Of a DNA stretch of 64,000 nucleotides, positions 44,505-64,000 are shown in pieces. A model generated the notes under the pieces. The model did no database searches. It was not told the origin of the DNA and saw only the letters and a program-made list of their open reading frames with translations. Source of the DNA: Hyunsoonleella ulvae (GTDB lineage Bacteria; Bacteroidota; Bacteroidia; Flavobacteriales; Flavobacteriaceae); contig NZ_JAEPJQ010000002.1 in assembly GCF_016827605.1 (NCBI RefSeq), positions 558,001 to 622,000 of the forward strand. Reading direction: 5' to 3'. Within the stretch, counting starts at the first letter, position 1. Each line of letters starts with the position of its first letter. The position numbers and the translations under genes are program-made.

Positions 44505-45329
44505 CTAGTGTTCTAAGAAGTCTATTAAGTGTTTTCTATATTTATAATAATCGTCGTGTTCTAATACCGATTTACGCGAACGAGGCCTTTCAAAATCTAT
44601 ATCTAAAACGTCTCCAATTTTTGCTCGAGGACCACTAGTCATCATTACTACGCGATCTGCTAAAAATATGGCCTCATCCACATCGTGGGTAATCATTACC
44701 GCCGTAATTTTTTCTTTATTCCAAATCTCTATTAATATATCTTGTAATTCGCCTCGTGTTAAGGAATCTAACATTCCAAAAGGCTCGTCTAACAATAAAA
44801 CTTTTGGTTTAATAGCAAATGCCCTTGCTATACCAACACGTTGTTGCATACCTTGAGATAAGTCAGAAGCACGTTTATTAAACGCATCTTCCAGACCTAC
44901 TTTTTGCAAGTAATATTTAGCGATATCGTTACGTTGTGCTTTGGTAGCATGAGGAAACACTTGGTTTACACCCAACAATACATTTTGTAAAGCCGTCATC
45001 CAAGGCATTAAACTAGGTGCCTGAAATATAACACCCCTATCTGGCCCTGGCCCTTTTATGTGCTTTCCTAAAACCGAGATGTTTCCGCCAGAAATAGGGT
45101 TTAATCCAGCAATCATAGAAAGCATTGTAGTTTTACCACATCCAGAATGCCCAATAATAGTAACAAATTCTTCTTTTCTAATTTGAAGATTTAAATGCTC
45201 CAAAACCACATAATCTCCTTTTGGTGTTGGATAAACCTTCTTTAAATCATTTAAATCAAGCATTACTTCGTTAGAAGGGAAAATGCCATTATGTCCTTTT
45301 GTAGCTGTATCTGTAATAATAGTGCTCAT
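44505..45329 (-). CDS. Nitrate-type ABC transporter ATPase (NrtD-like)
   Basis: 274 residues. Walker A GHSGCGKT (60-67), signature DLSQGMQQR near 157-163 (SQG instead of SGG), Walker B LLLDEP, and H-loop ITHDVDEA with H215 present. It belongs to the nitrate/sulfonate/taurine group of ABC ATPases; the binding protein and neighbouring reductase favour nitrate or nitrite. It lies 9 bp after the second ATPase gene. The pair probably forms a heterodimer in which this subunit keeps the catalytic histidine. Confidence 0.88.
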   Translation of the reverse strand: MSTIITDTATKGHNGIFPSNEVMLDLNDLKKVYPTPKGDYVVLEHLNLQIRKEEFVTIIGHSGCGKTTMLSMIAGLNPISGGNISVLGKHIKGPGPDRGVIFQAPSLMPWMTALQNVLLGVNQVFPHATKAQRNDIAKYYLQKVGLEDAFNKRASDLSQGMQQRVGIARAFAIKPKVLLLDEPFGMLDSLTRGELQDILIEIWNKEKITAVMITHDVDEAIFLADRVVMMTSGPRAKIGDVLDIDFERPRSRKSVLEHDDYYKYRKHLIDFLEH

Positions 45330-45338
45330 AGCTGATCT

Positions 45339-46187
45339 TTATCTAAATTGGTTTACAAAATCTTTTGGTGCTAAATCTGGAAGTACAATTTCTTCCGAGG
45401 CTTGTGCCTTACGCTCCGCTCCTATATCCATTAAATACTCAATAATAGCATTTCTGGTTTTTTTGTAATTAGGGTTGTCGTTCATTTCGGTCTTGTCACG
45501 AGGACGCTCAATGTCAATCTTAAACTCAGGCCCCAAGGTTGCGTTTGGCCCAGGTCGTAATGGGATAATACGGTCTGCCATGTAAATACCTTCATCTACA
45601 TCGTTCGTAATCAATAAAGCGGTACGCTTATCTTTTCCCCAAATATTTAATATCTGGTCTTGAAGCGTACCTCGCGTTAATGCGTCTAGCGCCCCTAAAG
45701 GTTCATCCATAATAATCATATCCGGTTTCATAGATAAGGCTCTAGCTACAGCCACACGCTGGCGCATACCTCCTGATAATTCTTTAGGTAACTTATTAAT
45801 AGCAGGTGTTAAACCTACCATGTCAATATAGTGTGCCGCCTTACGCTTATACACCGCTTTTTCTCGTTTTGGAAACGCTTCCTTTACCGCCATCATTACA
45901 TTTTGCTCAACGGTTAACCACGGTAATAATGAGTAATTCTGAAAAATCACACCACGTTCATGGCTCGTGCCTTCTACAGGCTTTCCTTTAAACAACACTT
46001 CGCCTTTGGTGGGTTCCAGTAATCCGTTTATTAAATTTACCAGTGTGGTTTTTCCACTTCCAGTAAAGCCTACAATTGCTACAAACTCACCTTCCTCTAT
46101 TGATAAATTAATATCAGATAGCACCTCGGTTGCATTCTCATCATTCCCGTAGGTTTTGTAAATATTTTTTAATTCTAAGTATGCCAT
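45339..46187 (-). CDS. Nitrate-type ABC transporter ATPase with Asn in the H-loop
   Basis: 282 residues. Walker A GFTGSGKT (40-47), signature LSGGM (137-141) and Walker B MDEP (D161, E162) are intact. The switch (H-loop) histidine is replaced: LLITNDVDEG has N195 where the neighbouring ATPase has His. A C-terminal extension after FKIDIERPR reaches 282 residues. I infer a heterodimer with one weakened site, as in asymmetric ABC transporters. It is encoded between the permease and the other ATPase, on the same strand. Confidence 0.88.
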   Translation of the reverse strand: MAYLELKNIYKTYGNDENATEVLSDINLSIEEGEFVAIVGFTGSGKTTLVNLINGLLEPTKGEVLFKGKPVEGTSHERGVIFQNYSLLPWLTVEQNVMMAVKEAFPKREKAVYKRKAAHYIDMVGLTPAINKLPKELSGGMRQRVAVARALSMKPDMIIMDEPLGALDALTRGTLQDQILNIWGKDKRTALLITNDVDEGIYMADRIIPLRPGPNATLGPEFKIDIERPRDKTEMNDNPNYKKTRNAIIEYLMDIGAERKAQASEEIVLPDLAPKDFVNQFR

Positions 46188-46261
46188 TTCTTTATTGTTT
46201 AAGTGTTTATTTGTTGATGCGTTTAATCGATTCCACGATTAAACATTTAAACAATTCAACA

Positions 46262-47368
46262 TTATATCGCGTCTGTTTTTTCAAAAGACACTGCATTTTG
46301 AATGGCTAACATGAGGCGATCTAACAAGAAGCCTATAATACCAATAACAAACATGGCAACTATAATTTTGGCGTTCGAGTCGTTGGCACCATTTTGGAAT
46401 TCCTCCCAAACAAACAATCCTAAACCAGGGCTCTGTGCTAGTAATTCAATAGCAATTAATACCATCCACGCCACAGACAATGTAATTTTTAAACCCGTAA
46501 AAATTAAAGGCAAAGACGATGGCAATACCACTTTAAACACTTTTTGGAAATTCCCAAGTTTTAAGACCTTGGCAACATTGATGTAATCTTTATCTACCGA
46601 TGATACACCCATAGACGTATTTACCAAAGTGGCCCACATAGAACATAAACCAACTGCTATAAACGAGATGGTAAACGAACTATCCTCACTAGAATCTATC
46701 AATAATGTTTTTACAATCATAAACACAAGCAAGTACCAAACCACTGGTGATACAGGCTTAAAAATTTGAATAAACCAGTTAAACGCACTTTTTAGCGTTG
46801 GACTTAATCCTATAAAAATACCAAGAGGCACTGCAATAAGTAAAGCCAAAAAGAAACCTGCAAATACCGTTTTTAAACTTCTAAAGATTTGATCAACAAA
46901 AGAAGGTCTACCCGTATACACGATAGGATCTTTACCTTCAGCCACTCTCTTTTCGTTTAACGCCGCTGTTTTTTCAGCAAAAGCAGCTTTATCAGCACTA
47001 ATTAAGGCGTGATCGTTTAATAACGATTGGAACGATGCCCAAACCTGTGAAGGAGATGGCAGCGTGTTTGGCTGACAGCTTATATCTCCCGAAGCAATAC
47101 AAGCAGCCATTTCATCAGCGGCAGCCTGCCCTTGTTCGTTTAATGCTTTTTCTATTCTAAACTCAGCCTCAACATTGTATAGCGCCTTAGCCCCTAAATG
47201 CCATAAACCTAAGAACAATAGAACAGAAGCAATAGGTACAACTATTTTACGTAAAAAGGCTTTGTAATCGTCCTTCTCTAGCTTCCCTGTAAATAGGTCT
47301 TTAAACGAGCTTAAAAAGCCTAAGCCCATAAATTTGGTTACTTTTCCTAGTGTTAAACTTTGCTTCAT
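46262..47368 (-). CDS. Nitrate-type ABC transporter permease (NrtB-like)
   Basis: A membrane protein of 368 residues from the preferred start at 47368 (MKQSLTLGKVTKF). The longer frame from 47416 would add 16 residues that run into an inverted repeat, so the inner ATG, preceded by an A-rich stretch, is favoured. One N-terminal membrane segment is followed by an unusually long extracytoplasmic insert of about 100 residues (with CIASGDISCQ, a possible disulfide). The BPD-transport domain then carries SVAWMVLIAIELLAQSPGLG near its conserved loop. It moves nitrate through the inner membrane with the two ATPases. Confidence 0.85.
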   Translation of the reverse strand: MKQSLTLGKVTKFMGLGFLSSFKDLFTGKLEKDDYKAFLRKIVVPIASVLLFLGLWHLGAKALYNVEAEFRIEKALNEQGQAAADEMAACIASGDISCQPNTLPSPSQVWASFQSLLNDHALISADKAAFAEKTAALNEKRVAEGKDPIVYTGRPSFVDQIFRSLKTVFAGFFLALLIAVPLGIFIGLSPTLKSAFNWFIQIFKPVSPVVWYLLVFMIVKTLLIDSSEDSSFTISFIAVGLCSMWATLVNTSMGVSSVDKDYINVAKVLKLGNFQKVFKVVLPSSLPLIFTGLKITLSVAWMVLIAIELLAQSPGLGLFVWEEFQNGANDSNAKIIVAMFVIGIIGFLLDRLMLAIQNAVSFEKTDAI

Positions 47369-47410
47369 GACTCTTTTATTTAATGTGTGTTTAGTGTTTG
47401 TGTTTACTAG

Positions 47411-47474
47411 TGTCATACTGAACTAGTTTCAGCTTCACAGCCTAACTAGATTCTGAAACAAGTTCAGAATGACA
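47411..47474. repeat. Inverted repeat between binding-protein and permease genes
   Basis: A 22-bp left arm (47411-47432) pairs with a right arm (47453-47474) with two mismatches around a 20-nt loop. The arm TGTCATTCTGAACTTGTTTC is a design common in flavobacterial intergenic repeats. In the polycistronic mRNA it would fold just after the nrtA-like stop and could tune expression of the distal genes. Confidence 0.65.
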
Positions 47475-47486
47475 GATAAATTTTGA

Positions 47487-48878
47487 TTACTTTACCGCTT
47501 TATCTTTATTTCCAATTGAGAAACTGTTGATGTATCCTATTGGGTCTTTAGCATCATAGGCATTTCCATCAATAAAGTCTGTTGTTGCAGGCTTGTAACC
47601 ATCAGTTTCTGGAATATCGCTTGCAGGAATGTTACCCTCTTCCACTAAAAGCTTAGCTGCTTTTGTCCAAATATCAGGTCTGTAAATATCCTTAATTGTC
47701 TCAGCATACCAAGACGCAGGCTTCGCTTCAGGAATTTGCCCCCAACGTCTCATTTGTGTTAAAAACCAGATACCATCAGAGTAGAATGGGTATGTAGCAT
47801 TGTACTTGTAGAATACGTTAAAGTCTGGCATCTCACGCTTATCGCCTTTTTCAAATTCAAACGTACCAGTCATAGAGTTTGCCAATACAGCCTCATCAGC
47901 TCCTACATATTGAGACATAGATAATATTTTTACAGCCTCAGCTCTATTTCCTGGCTCATCTAACCACTTACCAGCTCTAATCAATGCTTTAGTTACAGCA
48001 ATTGCAGTGTTAGGGTTTTCATCCACAAATTTCTTTGTCATTACAAATACTTTCTCTGGATTGTTTTTCCAGATATCATAGTTGGTAGTTACTGGGACAC
48101 CAATACCTTTAAATACCGCCTGTTGGTTCCATGGCTCTCCTACACAGTAGCCGTAAATTGTACCAGCTTCTAGTGTAGCAGGCATCTGTGGTGGAGGCGT
48201 TACAGATAATAATACCTCAGCATCAATCTGTCCTTGTACGTTATCAGCAGTATACATACCTGGGTGGATGCCCGCTGCTGCTAACCAATATCTTATTTCG
48301 TAGTTATGCGTAGATACAGGGAATACCATACCCATTTTAAAAGCTTTACCGCTGTTTTTGTAATCTGCAATTACTGGCTTAAGCGCATCTGCTTTTATAG
48401 GGTGTACCGGCTTACCATCTGCACCTTTAGGTACGTTTGGCTTCATTTTGCTCCATACATCATTAGATACTGTAATACCATTACCATTTAAATCCATTGA
48501 GAATGGTGTTACCAATTCTGCTTGACGGCCAAATCCTGCACCTGCTGCAATTGGCTGACCCGCTAGCATGTGGGAACCATCTAACTGACCATCGATTACA
48601 CGATCTAATACATTTTTCCAGTTAGATTGTGCCTCAACTGAAACAAATAAGCCTTCATCTTCAAAAAAGCCTTTTTCTTTTGCAATAGCTAAAGGTGCCA
48701 TATCTGTTAACTTTATAAAACCAAAGGTTAACTGTGGCTTTTCTATTTCTAAAGTTTTTGTTGTTGATGCCGCTGCTTTTTCAGCTACAACTGTTTCCTT
48801 TTTCTTTTCTCCACCACAAGCAAATAGTAGCACTGCCACAGGTAAAATCCAAGATGTGCGTTTTAATAAAGATTTCAT
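47487..48878 (-). CDS. Nitrate-binding lipoprotein (NrtA-like)
   Basis: 463 residues with a lipoprotein signal ending LLFACGG (Cys21). The fold is that of NrtA/SsuA-type binding proteins: [20 protein letters not shown] near 50-69, then [11 protein letters not shown] and the hinge segments typical of nitrate/bicarbonate-binding members. The length (about 440 mature) fits NrtA rather than the shorter taurine proteins. It captures nitrate or nitrite in the periplasm for the permease downstream. It is the first gene of the transport operon; a -7 box and a palindrome precede it. Confidence 0.88.
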
Positions 48879-48901: not shown

Positions 48902-48934
48902 TAAGTATTTATACTTAATTTTTAAGCAAATATA
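48902..48934 (-). promoter_or_regulatory. nrtA-like promoter with palindromic operator
   Basis: On the minus strand TATATTTG (48934-48927) fits the -7 consensus. Just downstream, at 48917-48902, lies the palindrome with 7-bp arms TAAGTAT and ATACTTA and a 2-bp centre. The palindrome would cover the transcription start. The same 16-bp core occurs before the globin gene (58495-58514). Confidence 0.6.
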
Positions 48935-54806: not shown

Positions 54807-55514
54807 CTATTCCTCTAGAGTTTTAAGCCATTCTTCTTGGGAAAGGGCTATATACTTTTTATCTGTACCATAAGGATCTTCTCCTCCATCAAAATAAGCT
54901 TGTATGGCTTTCATTGGAATGGTATCGCTTAGTTTTTCTGGTACCTCGTATCTGTGATTGCCATGAAAATCGTGACATTGTATACAGGTAAACCATTCTT
55001 CTTTTGCTATCAGGGCTTCGTGAGAAATATCCAGAGGATCGTTTTCTACCACTAAATCCTGATGGCAGTTCATACAATAATTGATATTTGCTACCGATAC
55101 ACGCTCTTCCTCATGCTCTGTATGGCAGGTAATACAAGTAGTAGCATCGATGTGTTTTATAGCATCTTTAAATCGTGGTTCTGAGAAACGATACGTAGGA
55201 TGCCTATCGTTAGGACGATCGTGACATTGTAAACAATTATCTACGGTAACGTCTTGAGTACCAAAATCTACACTACTTTCGCGTGCTCCAAAAGCATGAG
55301 ACATATTAGATTGTACTTGCTGCATTAAATTGCCTTTAGCATCGGCATGACATGCGAAGCAATTAAGCTGTTCATGTCCAGTATTCATAGGACCAATAGA
55401 GACGTAATCTTCGGTAGCATCTAGCGTGAAGATATAGAACAAAGAAACTCCTAGCACTAAGCCTATAATGCCTCCTATAACTTGCCTTTTTCGTAACGGA
55501 CTTACTTTAAACAT
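54807..55514 (-). CDS. Membrane-anchored pentaheme c-type cytochrome
   Basis: 235 residues with one N-terminal membrane anchor (about 12-31). Five CXXCH motifs bind heme c: residues 52-56, 94-98, 127-131, 147-151 and 177-181. It resembles tetra/pentaheme cytochrome c3-like or NapC/NirT-related periplasmic electron carriers but matches no named enzyme I recognise. It is the last gene of the globin cluster, 8 bp after the reductase gene. I infer it receives electrons at the periplasmic side of the membrane. Whether it reduces a substrate itself or passes electrons on is open. Confidence 0.82.
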   Translation of the reverse strand: MFKVSPLRKRQVIGGIIGLVLGVSLFYIFTLDATEDYVSIGPMNTGHEQLNCFACHADAKGNLMQQVQSNMSHAFGARESSVDFGTQDVTVDNCLQCHDRPNDRHPTYRFSEPRFKDAIKHIDATTCITCHTEHEEERVSVANINYCMNCHQDLVVENDPLDISHEALIAKEEWFTCIQCHDFHGNHRYEVPEKLSDTIPMKAIQAYFDGGEDPYGTDKKYIALSQEEWLKTLEE

Positions 55515-55522
55515 ACTTTAAA

Positions 55523-56554
55523 CTATATTTCTATTACTACTTTTTCACTTACTGGATAGGTTACACAGGTTAGGATACTACCACCTTCTACCTCATCATC
55601 TGGTAATATGTGACCTTCCGTCATTTGTACTTCTCCTTCAACACATTTCCCTTTACAAGTAGAACACATTCCAGATCTGCAAGAATACGGAATAACAATA
55701 TTGTGTGACATCGCTTGATTTAAAATGGATTTATCCCCACGAACTTTGAAGTTATATTCCTCTCCTTTATGTTTTAGGGTTACATCTGCTAAAAGATTTT
55801 TACCCGTAACCTTAACCGTTGGACTTTTAAATACCTCCACCTTTATTTTTTCTCGGGTAATACCGTTCTCCCCCAAGATTTCTTTTATCTTTTCCATATA
55901 ACCAAACGGGCCACAAATCATATACACATGATCATCTTGATAGGTTATACCGTGTTTTATAAAAATGCGATCTACAACCAATTTTGTGGCTAATCCAGGA
56001 TGGTAATTGCCTTTATAAGTTGTGTTTCCAGAAACAATGTGGTCTACCTTAAATTGCTCTGAGTATTGGGCCGATAAAGCTTTTATTTCCTCATGGAATA
56101 TGATAGATTCCATAGTTTGGTTGGCATAAATTAACAGGATCTTAGATTTAGGCTCCTCTGTTAATACTGACTTTACTATAGAAAACATAGGTGTTACACC
56201 ACTTCCTCCTGCAAATAAAACATACTGTTTTTGATGGTTGTTTTTAGGTTCTATACAAAATGTACCAGCTGGATCATCCACTTGTAGTTTATCACCTATT
56301 TTAAGATTATCATGTACATAATTAGACACCAACCCCTTCTCTACACGCTTTACAGTAATTTTTAAGTCTTTATCAGTATAAGGATTACTACTAAAGGAAT
56401 ACGCTCGTTTTTGTATCACACCATCAATAGGTACATGAATGGTTAAAAACTGCCCTGGCTTATATTTCAATTTCTTAAAAAGGTTTCCATTTTTAAAGCA
56501 AATACTCATCGCATCATCAGTTTCTTTTATGATGTCTTTTACCAATAATTTCAT
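55523..56554 (-). CDS. FAD/NAD(P)H oxidoreductase with C-terminal 2Fe-2S ferredoxin domain
   Basis: 343 residues, cytoplasmic. Three modules: FAD-binding barrel with RAYS (50-53), NAD(P)-binding domain with GGSGVTP (116-122) and YMICGPFGYM, and a plant-type 2Fe-2S domain with C292, C297, C300 and C330. This is the PaaE/Hcr-type order. It takes electrons from NAD(P)H and passes them on through the 2Fe-2S centre. By context the acceptor is the four-His membrane protein encoded 8 bp downstream of the gene before it, or the globin in the same cluster, which has no reductase domain of its own. Confidence 0.9.
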   Translation of the reverse strand: MKLLVKDIIKETDDAMSICFKNGNLFKKLKYKPGQFLTIHVPIDGVIQKRAYSFSSNPYTDKDLKITVKRVEKGLVSNYVHDNLKIGDKLQVDDPAGTFCIEPKNNHQKQYVLFAGGSGVTPMFSIVKSVLTEEPKSKILLIYANQTMESIIFHEEIKALSAQYSEQFKVDHIVSGNTTYKGNYHPGLATKLVVDRIFIKHGITYQDDHVYMICGPFGYMEKIKEILGENGITREKIKVEVFKSPTVKVTGKNLLADVTLKHKGEEYNFKVRGDKSILNQAMSHNIVIPYSCRSGMCSTCKGKCVEGEVQMTEGHILPDDEVEGGSILTCVTYPVSEKVVIEI

Positions 56555-56562
56555 AAGCTTTT

Positions 56563-57075
56563 CTATTTATAATAAAACACCATTGTAATATGAAACAACA
56601 TCATTATAGATACCACCAACGATAGTGCTACATGAGTAATCATCCATCCTTTAAACAGGGCATCACTATTATTTTTCATTACATCTAAATTGAAATACCC
56701 CAATAAGGTGTTAGCGAAAAAGATGTAAGATAGCAACAGCAAATAACCATAGCCCATACCCATACTGTGTACATAAAAGAAAATAGGACTTAATGCCCCT
56801 ACCCACTTATGGATAGCTTGCATTTTCATGGCGTACTTTTTCCACTTTTTTACAGTTCTGGTTAAAGACAACACCCATTGAAATACAATAAAAATGGCCA
56901 AAAACAGTCCAGACCAACGCTTGTACATTTCTTCTTCTTGTAGCGCATATAACCAGCCCCATTCCAGTTTTAAAAAAAACTGAAGCAAAAACGCTGATAA
57001 TAGTACTAATCCAACAATGGTAAATTTATTATTATTTAGAACCATAAAGGAAAAATTGATGATAAACAATTGCAA
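56563..57075 (-). CDS. Membrane protein with two H-x13-H helices, candidate diheme cytochrome b
   Basis: 170 residues, about five hydrophobic segments. H89 and H103 lie 14 apart around the third segment; H148 and H162 lie 14 apart in the last. Two helices each with two His at this spacing is how ferric-reductase/NADPH-oxidase proteins hold two stacked hemes, so I infer a diheme b-type cytochrome. No annotation is recalled for this small family. M11 is a possible alternative start. Placed between the DUF3365 and reductase genes with an 8-bp gap to the latter, it could carry electrons from the cytoplasmic reductase to the periplasmic cytochromes. Confidence 0.55.
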   Translation of the reverse strand: MQLFIINFSFMVLNNNKFTIVGLVLLSAFLLQFFLKLEWGWLYALQEEEMYKRWSGLFLAIFIVFQWVLSLTRTVKKWKKYAMKMQAIHKWVGALSPIFFYVHSMGMGYGYLLLLSYIFFANTLLGYFNLDVMKNNSDALFKGWMITHVALSLVVSIMMLFHITMVFYYK

Positions 57076-57132
57076 CTCGCTGGATTAAAAGGAAAAATAC
57101 CAGCGAGATTGCAATCTTAACACTAAACAAAA

Positions 57133-57942
57133 TTATTTGGCAGCCACCAGATGTTTCATAGTTTCATAAGAAGACAGTTTACGCACACTGTCTAGGAACA
57201 CTTCTGGTGTTGGAAGGTATTTCCCTTCTGCTGGCCATTTATCTCCTATTTCAGGTTTTTCACTTTCTTTAAAAGCTTCTATTTCATCTAAATACTCCAT
57301 GTAGATATCCACTGTACCTTTTGCATAAGAATTAAGCACAGCTACAGTTTCCTTATAGGTTAAGGAGTCCTTTGGATATTGCCATGTGGTTGCCCCCATT
57401 ACATCTCCTAATTCCCAATCAGACTTTGTGGTTTGTGGATGCTTGTTATGACATGTTACACAAGCCCCTGCACTAGCTAAATCTGCAAACATAGCTGTGT
57501 GCAGTTTTTGCTCTTCATCATAGAAAAATTGTGGTTTTTGATCTTTTTTAATTTGAGCAAACAACTCCGCTTGTTTACCCTCAAACTTATTAGCAGCATT
57601 TACTGGGAAATCAGACCCTAGATACAACCCTAAAGGCACAGGACCTTTTCTGATACTTGTTGCAACCCCCCTTAAAAACAATGCAGGTAAAGGTCCCGCT
57701 TCAACATCATCCTTTCTCCAGTCTTCATCAAACTTCATTCCCTGTTTTTTACCTTTACCAACAATAGCTTTGGTATACAATGTTCTTGTAACATCGTTTT
57801 CTTTTGCTACCATTTCTAAAACCTCTTCTACCGCAAATACTTTTTCTTCTCCTGCTTGGTCTGATTTTTCTTCAGGTACTCCTCCACAAGAATAAAATAC
57901 TAATGCTAAAGCTGATACGAATAATAATTTAGTAATTTTCAT
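57133..57942 (-). CDS. DUF3365-like monoheme c-type lipoprotein
   Basis: 269 residues with a lipoprotein signal ending FYSCGG (Cys19). One heme c site, CVTCH, at 161-165. The region around it (FADLASAGACVTCHNKHP) and the preceding helix/strand pattern resemble DUF3365 (Tll0287-like) periplasmic heme domains, sensors or electron carriers of unsettled role. It is 107 bp after the globin gene and 57 bp before the four-His membrane protein gene. I infer a periplasmic electron carrier or redox sensor in the same system. Heme ligation is by motif only. Confidence 0.78.
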   Translation of the reverse strand: MKITKLLFVSALALVFYSCGGVPEEKSDQAGEEKVFAVEEVLEMVAKENDVTRTLYTKAIVGKGKKQGMKFDEDWRKDDVEAGPLPALFLRGVATSIRKGPVPLGLYLGSDFPVNAANKFEGKQAELFAQIKKDQKPQFFYDEEQKLHTAMFADLASAGACVTCHNKHPQTTKSDWELGDVMGATTWQYPKDSLTYKETVAVLNSYAKGTVDIYMEYLDEIEAFKESEKPEIGDKWPAEGKYLPTPEVFLDSVRKLSSYETMKHLVAAK

Positions 57943-58049
57943 CTGTTAATTTTTATTGTTAGATATGAGTGTGATTTAATTTGCCATGAAACATGTTGGC
58001 TAGCATTTTAAATGCTACGCTTATGGCACACCATTAATTTTTGAGCTGA

Positions 58050-58463
58050 TTAATATGCTGCTTCAATCATTACACTAGACATTACGCCATAAACGTCTGT
58101 CCAAGCAGTTTTAACTTCTGGAGTAAAATCGTCTCCTAATCCAGCTTCCAGAGTTCCTAGTAAAGCAGCTCCCACTGTGTCATAATGAAAAGCCTCTACC
58201 TTATAATCCACATGTCTTTTAGCAAGATCTTTTAATACAGGTATTAACGCCTCCAAATTACTTAATCCTGCTACTGCTGCTGCTAGCATAGACATTAGTT
58301 TATTCCCTTGGGTTTTCATAGCTTCATCACTACTTGGAAATAATGGTTTTAAATTTGGATCTAGCTCGAACAGTTTAGTGTAAAATATTTCAGCTGCTTG
58401 GGGCGCAATGGGTTTTACCTTTTCAAAAGAATCTTGTACTAATGTTACTGTTTTTGCTTCCAT
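58050..58463 (-). CDS. Single-domain globin (flavohemoglobin/Vgb type)
   Basis: 137 residues, no signal. The proximal heme ligand is H84 in AKRHVDYKVEAFHY, the same context as in Vitreoscilla hemoglobin and flavohemoglobins. Tyr28 in IFYTKLF is the B10 tyrosine and Gln52 the E7-type residue, both common in O2/NO-binding bacterial globins. The reductase half of a flavohemoglobin is missing, but a separate FAD/2Fe-2S reductase is encoded in the same cluster. NO detoxification is the likely role (inferred). The gene heads the cluster under a promoter with the 20-bp palindrome. Confidence 0.9.
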   Translation of the reverse strand: MEAKTVTLVQDSFEKVKPIAPQAAEIFYTKLFELDPNLKPLFPSSDEAMKTQGNKLMSMLAAAVAGLSNLEALIPVLKDLAKRHVDYKVEAFHYDTVGAALLGTLEAGLGDDFTPEVKTAWTDVYGVMSSVMIEAAY

Positions 58464-58494: not shown

Positions 58495-58527
58495 AGTAAG
58501 TATTAATACTTACTGTAAACAAAAATA
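58495..58527 (-). promoter_or_regulatory. Globin promoter with 20-bp perfect palindrome
   Basis: On the minus strand TATTTTTG (58527-58520) fits the -7 consensus. The perfect palindrome AGTAAGTATTAATACTTACT (58514-58495) begins 6 bp further on, covering the expected start of transcription. Its core TAAGTAT-N2-ATACTTA is also in front of the nitrate-transport operon. Confidence 0.65.
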
Positions 58528-58653: not shown

Positions 58654-59385
58654 TTAACTATCTAAGAAATAGTTATGGTCGCTTATTTCTTTTCTAAGCA
58701 TTTGAATGTTATTGATACCTATCTTTTTACCTTGGGCAGAAATTAACTTTTCTTTCTTTAAAGCTGAGAATACACGAATAACTTGCTCTTCAGTAGTACC
58801 AGAATAATCAGCATATTCTCTGCGGCTAAGTGGTAAGTTTAAAAAACCGTTTAACTCTCCAAACTTTCTGTGAATGTATAACAAAGAATCGATAACACGC
58901 TCTCGAACCGTCATTTGTGAAATAGATTTCACTTTATTCTCACTTCTATTAAGTTCGTTAGCATAAAACATCATCATATCATAAGTAAGCTTGGGATTAG
59001 CCATTAGGGTTTCCTGCAAATGTTCTTTTGAAAAATAGTGCAACTTTACATCTTGCAGTGCAATGGCTCCGATGGAATAGAACTCTTGTGTACCAAAACC
59101 ACGATGACCGATAATTTCGCATGGTTTGGCAAAGCGTACTATTTGCTCTCTTCCATTAATTCCTGTTCTAAATACTTTTACCGTACCACTTTTTAGAAAG
59201 AAAAGACCGTTTACAGGAGCTCCCTCCATAATAAACTGTTGTCCTTTTTTACATTTTAATACAGTACTTTGTTGCGCTAAACTTGAACTAAACAATACTT
59301 CGTAGTGGTTGTTTATGAGACAGTTTGGATTTTCGCATGTATCACATGCGCCTTCTTTTCTTTGTTCTATTTTACCACTAATCAC
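58654..59385 (-). CDS. CRP/FNR-family regulator with N-terminal cysteine cluster
   Basis: 243 residues. The N-terminus has C14, C17 and C22 (CDTCENPNC), an FNR-like spacing; C45 or C89 could be the fourth ligand of an iron-sulfur cluster. The cyclic-nucleotide-fold domain (GQQFIMEGAPVNGLFFL) spans about 45-150. The C-terminal winged helix has RREYADYSGTTEEQVIRVFS as the HTH. I infer an oxygen- or NO-sensing regulator of the nearby nitrate and globin genes, possibly through the TAAGTATTWATACTTA palindrome. No copy of that palindrome is seen at its own promoter. Confidence 0.85.
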   Translation of the reverse strand: MISGKIEQRKEGACDTCENPNCLINNHYEVLFSSSLAQQSTVLKCKKGQQFIMEGAPVNGLFFLKSGTVKVFRTGINGREQIVRFAKPCEIIGHRGFGTQEFYSIGAIALQDVKLHYFSKEHLQETLMANPKLTYDMMMFYANELNRSENKVKSISQMTVRERVIDSLLYIHRKFGELNGFLNLPLSRREYADYSGTTEEQVIRVFSALKKEKLISAQGKKIGINNIQMLRKEISDHNYFLDS

Positions 59386-59630: not shown

Positions 59631-61070
59631 CTAAGTATTATTTACAAGTTGCAATGTTTTCTTCACAAAACTCTGTTTTGGTGACTCACATAGTGAACAT
59701 CTATAGGTGTCTGGTAATTTCTCAAATGGGGTATTTGGTGGAATATTTTGCGTAACATCTCCATAAGCATCACTATACACTGTTAAACATTCTGAACATT
59801 GGTGCACCTCTTCCTCCCTACTTACTTTTGATACTTCTGGTTGCGTTCCTTCCTCATTTTCATCACCTAAACGTTCAAAATACAATTTACTTAACTCCAT
59901 TAACAAGCCTGGTAACTCTACCTTATCCACATCCTGAACATGTACAATGTATTCGCGTGTATTTGGATCAAAATTTTTCGCATACAGTAGGTTGTAGGTA
60001 TCTCGTATTTTAAAGCCTCTTTCTACTTCTGGTTGCCTGTTCTTCTCTACAACAATTGATGTAAAGTTGTAGGTATCACTATCGTAACTGGTAATTCCAA
60101 AAGTAAGTCCGTAAGTACTTATATCATTTTGGTCAAAATTTGTTACTAAGTACTTTTTTAAATTTAGCGCTTCTTTATCATTCACAGGAAGGTGCCAATT
60201 CATTTCAAGCATAGAATGACGAACATTAATCCCATATTTACCTAAAAACTTTTCCCATTTCAATTTGGAGTGTAGTGGGATACCTTTAACTATAAATGAT
60301 TTCCAAGGTGTGATGGATATTTTTCCTATTTTATTTTCTGAACACAAATCGCACATGGCTTTTAAAAATGGTAAGTCGTAACGATTGTTTCTCCAATATA
60401 GCCCTAACCAGTAGCGATCTGGACCAATACGGTTCATCCCTTCATAATACGGGAAAGGGTAAAAAGGCACTTCTAAAGGTTTATCTACGGTTCTATTATT
60501 GGTTTCTACGGCATCATTTACCAAATCAAAAACCATATCTACAGTTTCGGGCTCTTCAATTAAAATATTCTCTACAGCTAGTTCTACCTTATCCATATCC
60601 CAACTATAAATCAAAGCTGGATACATTTTGGTTTTTTCCCAACCTGGCAATCGTAAGTATAGATACCAATAATCCTCATGCTCTGAAGCTATAAAATTTA
60701 CATTACCCGTAAATAATGGTACTAAACGTTGCTTGGGATCTATAACATTAATCCTGAGTTTTGGATCGTGCTTAAACTGTTCTAAAACATACAGGTAACG
60801 ATCGCTTGTTAACCATGAGGTACTTGGTAAAATTTCTGAAGACACATAGGAAGACGCTATGTTTTCCACACCGTCTCGCTTAGGTTTTACAAATTTTATT
60901 TTATCAAATTGACTAAACTTACTTTCATCAATTTGCTCTGGAAAAATGATGTCTTGTCGAGACCCAAAGGATATGGCATCCAAACCTAAACCTTCAGCCG
61001 CTTCACATATATACTTTAATTCCCCTGGCGATAATACTCCACCATTAATCATTAATCTGTACGGTTCCAT
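59631..61070 (-). CDS. Nitrite/sulfite-reductase-like protein with C-terminal rubredoxin domain
   Basis: 479 residues, cytoplasmic. The first 400 residues resemble the ferredoxin-like half-domains of nitrite/sulfite reductases (MINGGVLSPGELKYICEAAE at the start), but the four cysteines expected for siroheme/4Fe-4S binding are not visible. The C-terminus is a rubredoxin-type domain with C425, C428, C458 and C461. I infer a partner that passes electrons to nitrate or nitrite reductase rather than a full siroheme enzyme. Its ATG overlaps the stop of the nitrate reductase gene by one base (TAATG), implying co-translation. Confidence 0.7.
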   Translation of the reverse strand: MEPYRLMINGGVLSPGELKYICEAAEGLGLDAISFGSRQDIIFPEQIDESKFSQFDKIKFVKPKRDGVENIASSYVSSEILPSTSWLTSDRYLYVLEQFKHDPKLRINVIDPKQRLVPLFTGNVNFIASEHEDYWYLYLRLPGWEKTKMYPALIYSWDMDKVELAVENILIEEPETVDMVFDLVNDAVETNNRTVDKPLEVPFYPFPYYEGMNRIGPDRYWLGLYWRNNRYDLPFLKAMCDLCSENKIGKISITPWKSFIVKGIPLHSKLKWEKFLGKYGINVRHSMLEMNWHLPVNDKEALNLKKYLVTNFDQNDISTYGLTFGITSYDSDTYNFTSIVVEKNRQPEVERGFKIRDTYNLLYAKNFDPNTREYIVHVQDVDKVELPGLLMELSKLYFERLGDENEEGTQPEVSKVSREEEVHQCSECLTVYSDAYGDVTQNIPPNTPFEKLPDTYRCSLCESPKQSFVKKTLQLVNNT

Positions 61071-64000
61071 TATGCTAATACTTTTGAATTTTGAAGTATT
61101 TCCCTAACTTCTGTTTTACAACTTCCACAGCCTATACCTGCTCCGGTTTTATTACATAACTCTGTAAAATCTGTACACCCTTTAGCTATGGTTTCCTCTA
61201 TATTTCCTTGCCCTACCTGACTACATGAACATACAAGCTTTCCTATTATTGGTGCATCATTGGATGCCCCCCTAAGCAGAGTATTTCGCTTATCTGCCAT
61301 TTCAATTTTACTCTCAATCATGGTTTTAAATTCGGCAAATTCGTTTTTATCACCCATTAAAACTGCTCCTACCAAAAGGTCATCTTTTACGATACATTTT
61401 TTGTAATAGCGCTTCTTGATGTCTGTGAAAATAATTTCTTCGTAGCTATCATCATGCTCTGGCACACTAATATCACCTATACTACATAAATTCAAATCAT
61501 TGAATTTTAAGATATTCATTAATACAGAACCATTATAGGAACTACTAATGTCTCCAGCTATAAAATTAGCTAAAATATTAGCTTGTTCTTCTGCTGCTGA
61601 TGTAATACCAAACAATTGATTGTTGTATTCGGCAATCTCTCCTATGGCAAAAATATCTGAATGGGACGACTGTAAATGTTGGTTTACCTTAACACCCCTA
61701 CTACACTCTATTCCATTTGCCCTAGCAATATCTACATTAGGAATTGTACCTATGGCGTACACAATGGCATTGGCTGTAATGTACTTTCCGCTTTTTAAAG
61801 TAATGTTTAGTTCTCCTGTATCTTCATCATCAAACACTGTACTTACTTCATTATCAAAATAAATTTGAATGCCGCGTTCTTGCACATCCAAAGCTAACAG
61901 CTTACTAGAAACTTTATCCAGCTGACGCTCCATTAAACGCGATGCACGTTGTATAATGGTTATTTTGGCATTTTTATGCTTCATGGCCGCTGCTAACTCT
62001 AAACCAAGTAATCCACCTCCCACAATAACCACATGTTGTTCCTCTGGAGGCAAACCTGTGGCATCTAAGTGTTTTTTAAACTTATCTGCATCAATTTTAT
62101 TACGCATGGTAAATCGCCCTGGCAAATCTATCTGCACATCTTTTGGTACAAAAGCCCGGCTTCCCGTGGCTAAAATTAATTTATCAAACGCATGCGCTAA
62201 CCCCTTACTATCGGTGACTACCTTATTTTCCTTATCTATCTTTGAAATTGTGGTTTCAGGGTATAGGTTTATATTAAGTTTCTCTAACTCTGCTTTTTTA
62301 ATTTTTAGAAGCTGTTCCCATGATAATTCCTCTGTGACATACTCTGGCAACAGTACCCTATTGTAAAATAGGTTAGGTTCCTTTGAAAACACATGAATTT
62401 CGTCAGTTGCATTTTGTTCCCTGTAATTCTGAACAAAACGAAATGCAGCAGCTCCAGCACCTGCTATGATAATTTTTTCGGCTTTCTTTTTATATTTTGA
62501 AACTATTACACGCGTAAACTTAAAGTCTGGCTCTTTGGATGTTGGGTCTACGTGTGTGTTAGTTAAATTATTCGTACGGTTTAAGGTACTCTGTAATTGT
62601 TTTCCCCAGTGCATTGGCAAGAACACCACGCCTTTTTTTATGTTATCGGTAACTTTAGCACGCACCCTTACTTCTCCATTTTCGCTTTTTATTTCTGCGA
62701 TATCTCCATCTTCGATTTTATATAAATAGGCATCTACCGGGTGAACCTCCAATACTGGCTTGGGGTAATGCGTTTTTAAACGCGACACTTTACCAGTTTT
62801 AGTCATGGTATGCCATTGATCTCTGATACGTCCTGTTGTTAAAATTAATGGATAGTCATCGTTTGGCAATACCGATGTATTCTCTATGGTACTTGGCACA
62901 TTAAACTTTGCTTTTTGAGATGGTGTGTAAAATTTTTTATCTTCAAACAGTCTGGATGTACCTTGATGTTTATGCTCTGGAACTGGCCACTGGAACGTAC
63001 CTTCGTTTTTAAGCCTGTCGTAATTTAAGTAAGACACATCAATATTTGTACCCTTTGTCATGGAAGCGTACTCATCATAAATCTCACTAGCACTATTAAA
63101 GTTAAAGCCTCTAAAGCCCATTCGTTGTGCGAAATCGCAGAAAATTTCTACATCTGGCCTTGCTTCTCCTGGAGCTTCAATCTCTTTTGGTAGGTAGGAA
63201 ATTCGTCGTTCAGAATTCGTCATCGTACCTTCTTTCTCCAGCCATGCTGCTGCTGGTAGTACTAAATCACCAAAAGCAACTGTATCTGATTTATGAGATA
63301 TATCTTGAACCACAACAAACTTTGCGTTTTTCATGGCTTTTTCTACACGATTTAAATTTGGTAAGCTTACTAGAGGGTTTGTACATGCAATCCAAACCGC
63401 TTTCATTTTACCACTTTCCAAAGCATCGAACATTTCGGTTGCGGTTAATCCTGGTTTAGGATTAATTTGTTCTACACCCCAAAACTGAGCTACTTCCCTA
63501 CGATGCTCTTCGTTCATTAAATCTTTATGAACTGCTAAAAGATTTGCCATTCCCCCTACTTCTCGTCCACCCATAGCATTGGGCTGTCCTGTTAACGAAA
63601 ATGGCCCCGCTCCTGGTTTTCCAACTTGACCTGTAATCAGGGATAAATTTAATAACGATACATTTTTATCAGTACCCACGACACTTTGGTTTAGCCCCAT
63701 GGCCCACATACTGATAAACCCTTTAGACAGCCCAATGATATCAGCTGCTTTTCGTATGTCTTTCTCTGAAACACCACATAGTTTTGACGCTTGCTTAAGT
63801 GATGTTTTAAAGATTAAATCTTTATAATCTTGGAAGCCTTCTGTGTAATTTTTGATAAAATCTTCATCTATTAAACCACGCTTGTATAAACATCTTCCAA
63901 TGGCATTATACAATACCACATCAGTTCCTGGCAATAGTTGTAAATGTAAATCTGCAAAGTTAGCTGTATCTGTTTTTCTAGGGTCTACAACTATAATTTT
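61070..64000 (-). CDS. Assimilatory nitrate reductase fused to NirB-like FAD domain and BFD cluster (5' end off window)
   Basis: 976 residues are visible and the frame stays open to the right edge; the TTG at 63934 is internal. Parts in order: molybdopterin-binding nitrate reductase (NasA-type, about the first 500 visible residues, with WAMGLNQSVVGTDKN and GQPNAMGGREVGG), an FAD/NAD(P) oxidoreductase domain like the N-terminal part of NirB (IIIAGAGAAAFRF, VIVGGGLLGLELA), and a C-terminal BFD-type 2Fe-2S segment (CSCSQVGQG and GAGIGCGSCK). It should reduce nitrate to nitrite with NAD(P)H as the donor in one polypeptide. The missing N-terminus would carry the Fe4S4 motif of NasA. Confidence 0.88.
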   Translation of the reverse strand, partial: KIIVVDPRKTDTANFADLHLQLLPGTDVVLYNAIGRCLYKRGLIDEDFIKNYTEGFQDYKDLIFKTSLKQASKLCGVSEKDIRKAADIIGLSKGFISMWAMGLNQSVVGTDKNVSLLNLSLITGQVGKPGAGPFSLTGQPNAMGGREVGGMANLLAVHKDLMNEEHRREVAQFWGVEQINPKPGLTATEMFDALESGKMKAVWIACTNPLVSLPNLNRVEKAMKNAKFVVVQDISHKSDTVAFGDLVLPAAAWLEKEGTMTNSERRISYLPKEIEAPGEARPDVEIFCDFAQRMGFRGFNFNSASEIYDEYASMTKGTNIDVSYLNYDRLKNEGTFQWPVPEHKHQGTSRLFEDKKFYTPSQKAKFNVPSTIENTSVLPNDDYPLILTTGRIRDQWHTMTKTGKVSRLKTHYPKPVLEVHPVDAYLYKIEDGDIAEIKSENGEVRVRAKVTDNIKKGVVFLPMHWGKQLQSTLNRTNNLTNTHVDPTSKEPDFKFTRVIVSKYKKKAEKIIIAGAGAAAFRFVQNYREQNATDEIHVFSKEPNLFYNRVLLPEYVTEELSWEQLLKIKKAELEKLNINLYPETTISKIDKENKVVTDSKGLAHAFDKLILATGSRAFVPKDVQIDLPGRFTMRNKIDADKFKKHLDATGLPPEEQHVVIVGGGLLGLELAAAMKHKNAKITIIQRASRLMERQLDKVSSKLLALDVQERGIQIYFDNEVSTVFDDEDTGELNITLKSGKYITANAIVYAIGTIPNVDIARANGIECSRGVKVNQHLQSSHSDIFAIGEIAEYNNQLFGITSAAEEQANILANFIAGDISSSYNGSVLMNILKFNDLNLCSIGDISVPEHDDSYEEIIFTDIKKRYYKKCIVKDDLLVGAVLMGDKNEFAEFKTMIESKIEMADKRNTLLRGASNDAPIIGKLVCSCSQVGQGNIEETIAKGCTDFTELCNKTGAGIGCGSCKTEVREILQNSKVLA

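Follow-up and report, generated by a model that had tools for sequence, protein, structure and literature searches.

At positions 54807-58463 of a 64,000-nt stretch of the Hyunsoonleella ulvae genome (the whole of which is called the window below), five genes form a conserved unit, as judged by comparison with related genomes. They encode a single-domain globin, a heme-c lipoprotein, a diheme-type membrane protein, a flavin reductase and a pentaheme cytochrome (Table 1). With somewhat better than even confidence, we read this cassette as coding for a transmembrane electron relay and, with it, a cytoplasmic globin, both co-produced with the nitrate-assimilation machinery and likely protecting the cell from reactive nitrogen by-products. 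The component parts are of known kinds; their combination seems new, as a phrase search of the open-access literature found no published description of the five-gene set, in line with a preliminary description of this DNA, made from the sequence only, which matched this composition to no named system. In the same literature, DUF3365 is mentioned in three papers only.

Conservation of the cassette

The five open reading frames (ORFs) are consecutive on the minus strand in the ORF list of the window, in the order given by the preliminary description, and Pfam supports the families assigned there except for the membrane protein, which belongs to no accepted family (its best match, Ferric_reduct, is below threshold). 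We followed the genes in two samples: a blind sample of 249 Flavobacteriaceae genomes (49 with the nitrate transporter gene nrtA, 200 without it) and a second sample of 80 named Flavobacteriaceae loci, on which motif counts for the membrane protein and the pentaheme cytochrome rest. Alignments included 58 membrane-protein and 27 lipoprotein members; globin motifs were counted over 76 relatives. The membrane-protein gene was present in 22 of 249 genomes, and 21 of these 22 had the complete cassette with an identical gene order; this order (globin, lipoprotein, membrane protein, reductase, pentaheme) was kept in almost all of the 80 named loci as well. The pairing of the membrane protein (then counted as 170 residues) with the pentaheme cytochrome, for which a synteny survey had been proposed, held in both samples. 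Median intergenic gaps of 23, 54, 8 and 10 bp, in the order given, are operon-like. Chance ORFs or unrelated neighbours are ruled out by synteny and residue conservation.

Some variation was seen. The globin gene can sit a few kb from the rest of the cassette, as in Aquimarina loci L086, L100 and L101. Beyond the family, a plasmid of Flammeovirga kamogawensis carries the genes hemA-globin-DUF3365-membrane protein-reductase-cytochrome; it turned up only via a plasmid collection, so the true taxonomic range is probably wider than the one sampled. The phylum- and order-level samples searched had no further clear carriers outside Flavobacteriaceae. Furthermore, the gap between the lipoprotein and membrane-protein genes holds a predicted RNA hairpin (Table 1); a strong hairpin (below -8 kcal/mol) was present at this place in 31 of the 59 relatives with a gap of at least 25 bp, mostly not in Aquimarina. 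Expression levels of the two halves of the cassette may therefore differ.

The membrane protein

The preliminary description had pointed to a diheme pattern of the ferric-reductase/NOX type, with two H-x13-H helices. Each of the 80 named loci has both motifs, as does Flammeovirga, and the pattern is therefore not a chance one; the four histidines (H79, H93, H138 and H152), whose poor conservation had been named as a point that would speak against the assignment, are invariant across the 58 aligned members. An alternative TTG start at 57075, giving 170 residues and the numbering H89/H103/H148/H162, was set aside: relatives begin at the internal ATG at 57045 (160 residues).

In proteins with a ferric reductase domain (FRD) the heme histidines are carried on the third and fifth transmembrane helices (PMC11031084). 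The AlphaFold2 (AF2) model of the membrane protein (predicted local distance difference test score, pLDDT, 81.6) has five long helices, with heme-ligand-type histidines in the third and fifth; a basic loop lies between the second and third. Two pairs of histidines spaced 12-14 residues apart in two helices, as expected of an FRD, are present. The heme ligands of SpNOX are H69, H82, H129 and H142 (PMC11031084); in a structural alignment with SpNOX, the offset was 10 residues at both ends, which would place the four histidines on or within one residue of these ligands (inner positions were derived from the end points). PF01794 Ferric_reduct was the top family for 56 of the 58 members, with a best E-value of 6.3e-6. 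Structural comparison of the model produced Z-scores of 8.2 with SpNOX (8qta), up to 8.9 with cytochrome b6 and 7.7 with b561, none of them above the noise expected of helical bundles; Foldseek returned no match at E <= 0.001, the membrane-family profile had no meaningful match among solved structures, and hhalign of this family against a single YodB sequence gave no useful signal. The protein likely works in an FRD-like manner.

Reductase, pentaheme cytochrome and a natural fusion

The reductase has PaaE as its best NCBIfam match (E 8.9e-76), yet below the cut-off; its RxYS motif and ferredoxin cysteines are invariant in relatives and it has no signal peptide. The pentaheme cytochrome has exactly five CxxCH motifs, a number found in all 80 relatives, as well as further invariant histidines H47, H105, H134, H165, H184 and H187. 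The protein would thus be suited to five low-spin electron-transfer hemes, since the spare histidines would allow bis-His ligation of all five. Its AF2 model (mean pLDDT 56.6) is too poor for a fold search, with the helix at residues 6-30 predicted confidently. The NrfH profile TIGR03153 scored 28.2 bits against a cut-off of 134.2; a resemblance to decaheme DmsE-type cytochromes was likewise below cut-off.

We observed that in one genome, G229 (locus L110), a single 571-residue ORF comprises reductase, membrane-helix and pentaheme parts; it is followed downstream by a lipoprotein homologue with a plain membrane anchor and then by the membrane protein; the same genome has no globin at E <= 1e-5. 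This single fusion suggests that the reductase is cytoplasmic and tethered to a periplasmic cytochrome, and, together with the missing globin, that this enzyme probably works mainly with the membrane relay rather than with the globin. A path from NAD(P)H to the periplasm, as proposed in the preliminary description, gains plausibility from the fusion; the accompanying proposal, that the reductase also serves the globin, is less well supported, given the G229 reductase and, in genome G213, a globin alone beside nrtA. The topology of the relay is inferred from the reductase having no signal peptide, from c hemes being attached on the outer side and from the basic loop between helices 2 and 3.

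Globin and lipoprotein

Tyr B10, Gln E7 and His F8 together make up the flavohemoglobin active-site pattern; they were found in 75, 76 and 68 of the 76 globin relatives, respectively. The closest solved relatives of the globin are Hell's Gate globin I (HGbI, entry 3S1I), Vitreoscilla hemoglobin and other flavohemoglobin-type globins. It consists of the globin domain only, without the fused reductase of flavohemoglobin (Hmp); its NF009805 score is below the cut-off. Among nrtA genomes, the orthologous globin was present in 21 of the 22 with the cassette versus 2 of the 27 without it; in G213 (L138:6622-7038) it stands alone between fnr and nrtABC, the relay genes being missing. A second single-domain globin, ∼60% identical, is located alone elsewhere in the H. 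ulvae genome (G000; L137:4914-5369, C1), without the palindrome described below.

The lipoprotein belongs to the Tll0287/DUF3365 family by profile (PF11845) and by a CxxCH motif invariant in the 27 aligned members, in which the sole other conserved cysteine is that of the lipobox. No conserved axial cysteine was seen in this alignment, which did not extend to Tll0287 itself. A profile search of solved structures with the lipoprotein family returned nothing meaningful.

Link to nitrate assimilation

All 22 cassette genomes had nrtA, compared with 27 of the other 227 genomes (Fisher p 2.8e-18, uncorrected for ancestry), and none of the 200 genomes without nrtA had the cassette. It appears that nitrate-importing marine flavobacteria often carry it.

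Another line of evidence comes from a palindrome found by pattern searches, in which exact or one-mismatch sites were counted against a reversed control. The two exact copies of TAAGTA-N4-TACTTA in the window lie upstream of the globin gene and of nrtA (Table 1); the 4.06-Mb genome has six, two of them in this cluster, against one copy of the control. One-mismatch sites precede nasA, the gene for a NarL-type response regulator, and nirB. Genome-wide, one-mismatch sites were not more common than control sites (39 vs 35), so the case for the palindrome rests on clustering (five of its sites within ∼23 kb of the nitrate cluster vs 39 genome-wide) and on conservation in relatives, where a site with at most one mismatch within 150 bp upstream was found for 66 of 75 globin genes and 54 of 55 nrtA genes. 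Co-occurrence with nrtA and the shared palindrome together make a strong comparative case for the link to nitrate. Of the earlier suggestion that the palindrome connects the cassette with nitrate or nitric oxide (NO), the nitrate part was borne out; NO itself enters only by inference.

Three of the four other exact copies of the palindrome in the H. ulvae genome (L115, L118 and L119; G000) are situated upstream of or beside genes of the tricarboxylic acid (TCA) cycle: sdhC, acnB and the eno/gltA interval. A regulator acting there may join carbon and nitrogen metabolism.

Proposed mechanism and alternatives

In the scheme that we propose, electrons would pass from NAD(P)H to FAD and the 2Fe-2S center of the cytoplasmic reductase, from there to the inner b heme (H79/H138) and on to the outer b heme (H93/H152) of the membrane protein, and then by way of the anchored pentaheme to a periplasmic acceptor, either the Tll0287-type lipoprotein or some other one. 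The globin would oxidise NO in the cytoplasm, and in the periplasm the relay would reduce or sense NO or species derived from nitrite. The wiring of reductase, membrane protein and pentaheme is suggested by the natural fusion, the gene order and the heme-ligand pattern; as a relay, the cassette is well supported by comparative evidence, with electron flow and substrate putative. A role in NO metabolism is our best guess, drawn from the globin active-site residues, the nitrate context and a parallel in Bradyrhizobium japonicum, where NasC can generate NO and the co-encoded Bjgb and Flp protect cells from it (PMC4724949). One could go further and speculate, tentatively, that the cassette is a new trans-membrane NO-defence system, in which a split diheme protein of the NOX/MsrQ-like kind, driven by a single NAD(P)H reductase, would power periplasmic c-heme chemistry on NO or nitrite, with the globin as a cytoplasmic NO dioxygenase, so that both sides of the membrane would be protected.

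Several observations weigh against our reading. Concerning the nitrate context, 27 of the 49 nrtA genomes lack the cassette, among them G132, from the same genus, where unrelated sequence occupies the corresponding place, and the Flammeovirga plasmid cassette lies away from nitrate genes and has no palindrome. The globin and the relay are separate in some genomes (G229 and L102 without a nearby globin, G213 with the globin only); thus they may be two solutions under joint regulation. As for the membrane protein, the PF01794 gathering score of 28 bits was never reached (25.8 bits was the highest among members scanned singly), hhalign of its family against a single E. coli MsrQ sequence gave no useful signal, and since for a helical bundle the SpNOX structural match, taken alone, is no better than noise, and the FRD norm is six helices against five in our model, the protein is a candidate member of the FRD family only.

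The closest parallels to the relay are E. coli MsrQ-Fre (MsrPQ) and SpNOX, in which an NAD(P)H flavin reductase feeds a membrane partner whose two helices bind two bis-His b hemes, and electrons are delivered to the outer face. The cassette differs from them in a 2Fe-2S domain added to the reductase, in five helices instead of six with similarity below the Pfam cut-off, and in an acceptor made up of a pentaheme and a Tll0287-type lipoprotein rather than MsrP or oxygen. It shares with the narK-bjgb-flp-nasC cluster of B. japonicum, for which NO protection was shown, a single-domain globin and an NAD(P)H flavoprotein, both encoded alongside nitrate-assimilation genes; the membrane diheme protein, the pentaheme and the Tll0287-type partner are not described there. 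The lipoprotein differs from other DUF3365/Tll0287 (sCache_heme) proteins in having fixed gene partners and, to judge from the alignment of its own family members, probably also in its lack of a conserved axial cysteine. The pentaheme is like NrfB, NrfH and DmsE in five CxxCH motifs with spare histidines and in weak profile similarity; unlike these, it is below all such NCBIfam cut-offs, is anchored, and is paired with a b-type relay and a reductase.

Other explanations can be set against our reading. MsrQ receives electrons from Fre and passes them to periplasmic MsrP (PMC11031084), and the cassette could similarly serve periplasmic repair or oxidant defence, feeding an unlinked periplasmic reductase (e.g. 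for oxidised or nitrated proteins) with the globin only co-regulated. The core without globin in G229 fits such a pathway; on the other hand, the five genes include no MsrP-like molybdoenzyme, the neighbours are nitrate genes, and the strict tie to nrtA would be unexpected for general repair, so we hold this to be unlikely. We give similarly little credence to a split flavohemoglobin, in which the main task of the reductase would be to re-reduce the globin, with redox sensing left to a separate branch of membrane hemes and cytochromes. Globin and reductase are indeed co-inherited in 21 of the 22 cassette genomes, in its FNR part the reductase is a relative of the Hmp reductase domain, and Flp has been proposed to serve Bjgb likewise; however, the reductase gene is located between those for the membrane protein and the pentaheme (8-10 bp gaps), not adjoining the globin gene, and the G229 reductase is fused to the pentaheme in a genome without a detectable globin.

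A sensor is quite improbable: the periplasmic heme proteins would detect NO, nitrite or redox state with little electron flux, the Tll0287-type lipoprotein being the gas-binding part. Tight NO binding is described for Tll0287-family domains that lack the axial cysteine and form part of signalling fusions (PMC12889525), and no such conserved cysteine was seen in the lipoprotein alignment; yet stand-alone family members were assigned redox roles (PMC12889525), the cassette encodes no signalling output, and a pentaheme with a dedicated reductase would be unusual for a sensor. Finally, export of surplus electrons to oxygen, metals or another acceptor, for redox balance on nitrate, has very little probability in our judgement. 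SpNOX, with its similar heme spacing, does reduce oxygen and cytochrome c (PMC5676040, PMC11031084), and the DmsE-type resemblance of the pentaheme points the same way, but the cassette has no outer-membrane conduit, and the porin-like gene nearby (Alginate_exp) belongs to the nrt block.

Among prokaryotic FRD proteins, only MsrQ is stated to have a clear physiological function (PMC11031084). If the relay reading is true, the cassette would be a second prokaryotic FRD-type relay with a biological context, equipped with its own reductase and with identified cytochrome partners; it would bear on how aerobic marine bacteria handle NO and nitrite when nitrate is the nitrogen source, and a stand-alone Tll0287-family protein would gain fixed partners to test.

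Features of the window

Table 1. Coordinates of the cassette genes and of associated features in the window
Feature	Position	Strand	Support or remark
Single-domain globin, 137 residues; flavohemoglobin-type heme domain without reductase	58050..58463	-	Pfam Globin, E 2.6e-20
Tll0287/DUF3365 (sCache_heme) lipoprotein, one CxxCH	57133..57942	-	PF11845, 30.4 bits (cut-off 24.1)
Predicted RNA hairpin between lipoprotein and membrane-protein genes	57046..57132	-	-24.4 kcal/mol
Diheme-type membrane protein, 160 residues (ATG start)	56563..57045	-	Invariant H79, H93, H138, H152
FAD/NAD(P)H/2Fe-2S reductase, PaaE/Hcr-like, cytoplasmic (predicted)	55523..56554	-	Pfam FAD_binding_6, NAD_binding_1, Fer2
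Pentaheme c-type cytochrome, N-terminal membrane helix (residues 6-30)	54807..55514	-	Five CxxCH; Pfam cytochrome c3-type families
Perfect 20-bp palindrome AGTAAGTATTAATACTTACT upstream of globin gene	58495..58514 (core 58497-58512)		
Second copy of palindrome core TAAGTATTTATACTTA upstream of nrtA	48902..48917		
NrtABC-type nitrate ABC transporter	44505..48878	-	Annotated homologues CmpA/NrtA
Crp/Fnr-family regulator, upstream neighbour of cassette	58654..59385	-	Pfam cNMP_binding, HTH_Crp_2; conserved neighbour
NirA-like half domains fused to rubredoxin	59631..61070	-	
Assimilatory nitrate reductase (NasA-like) with fused NirB-like reductase domains	61070..64000	-	Runs past window

The gene pair at 59631-64000 looks like an unusual self-contained nitrate-assimilation fusion set. 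Adjoining the right end of the window (L121:2142-5088), genes for a NarL-type regulator and for a PilJ-domain kinase of the NarX-like kind lie beside nasA. At the other side of the window, positions 3-38000 carry a series of putative polysaccharide-degradation genes (sulfatases, rhamnosidase-like and others) that have nothing to do with the cassette.

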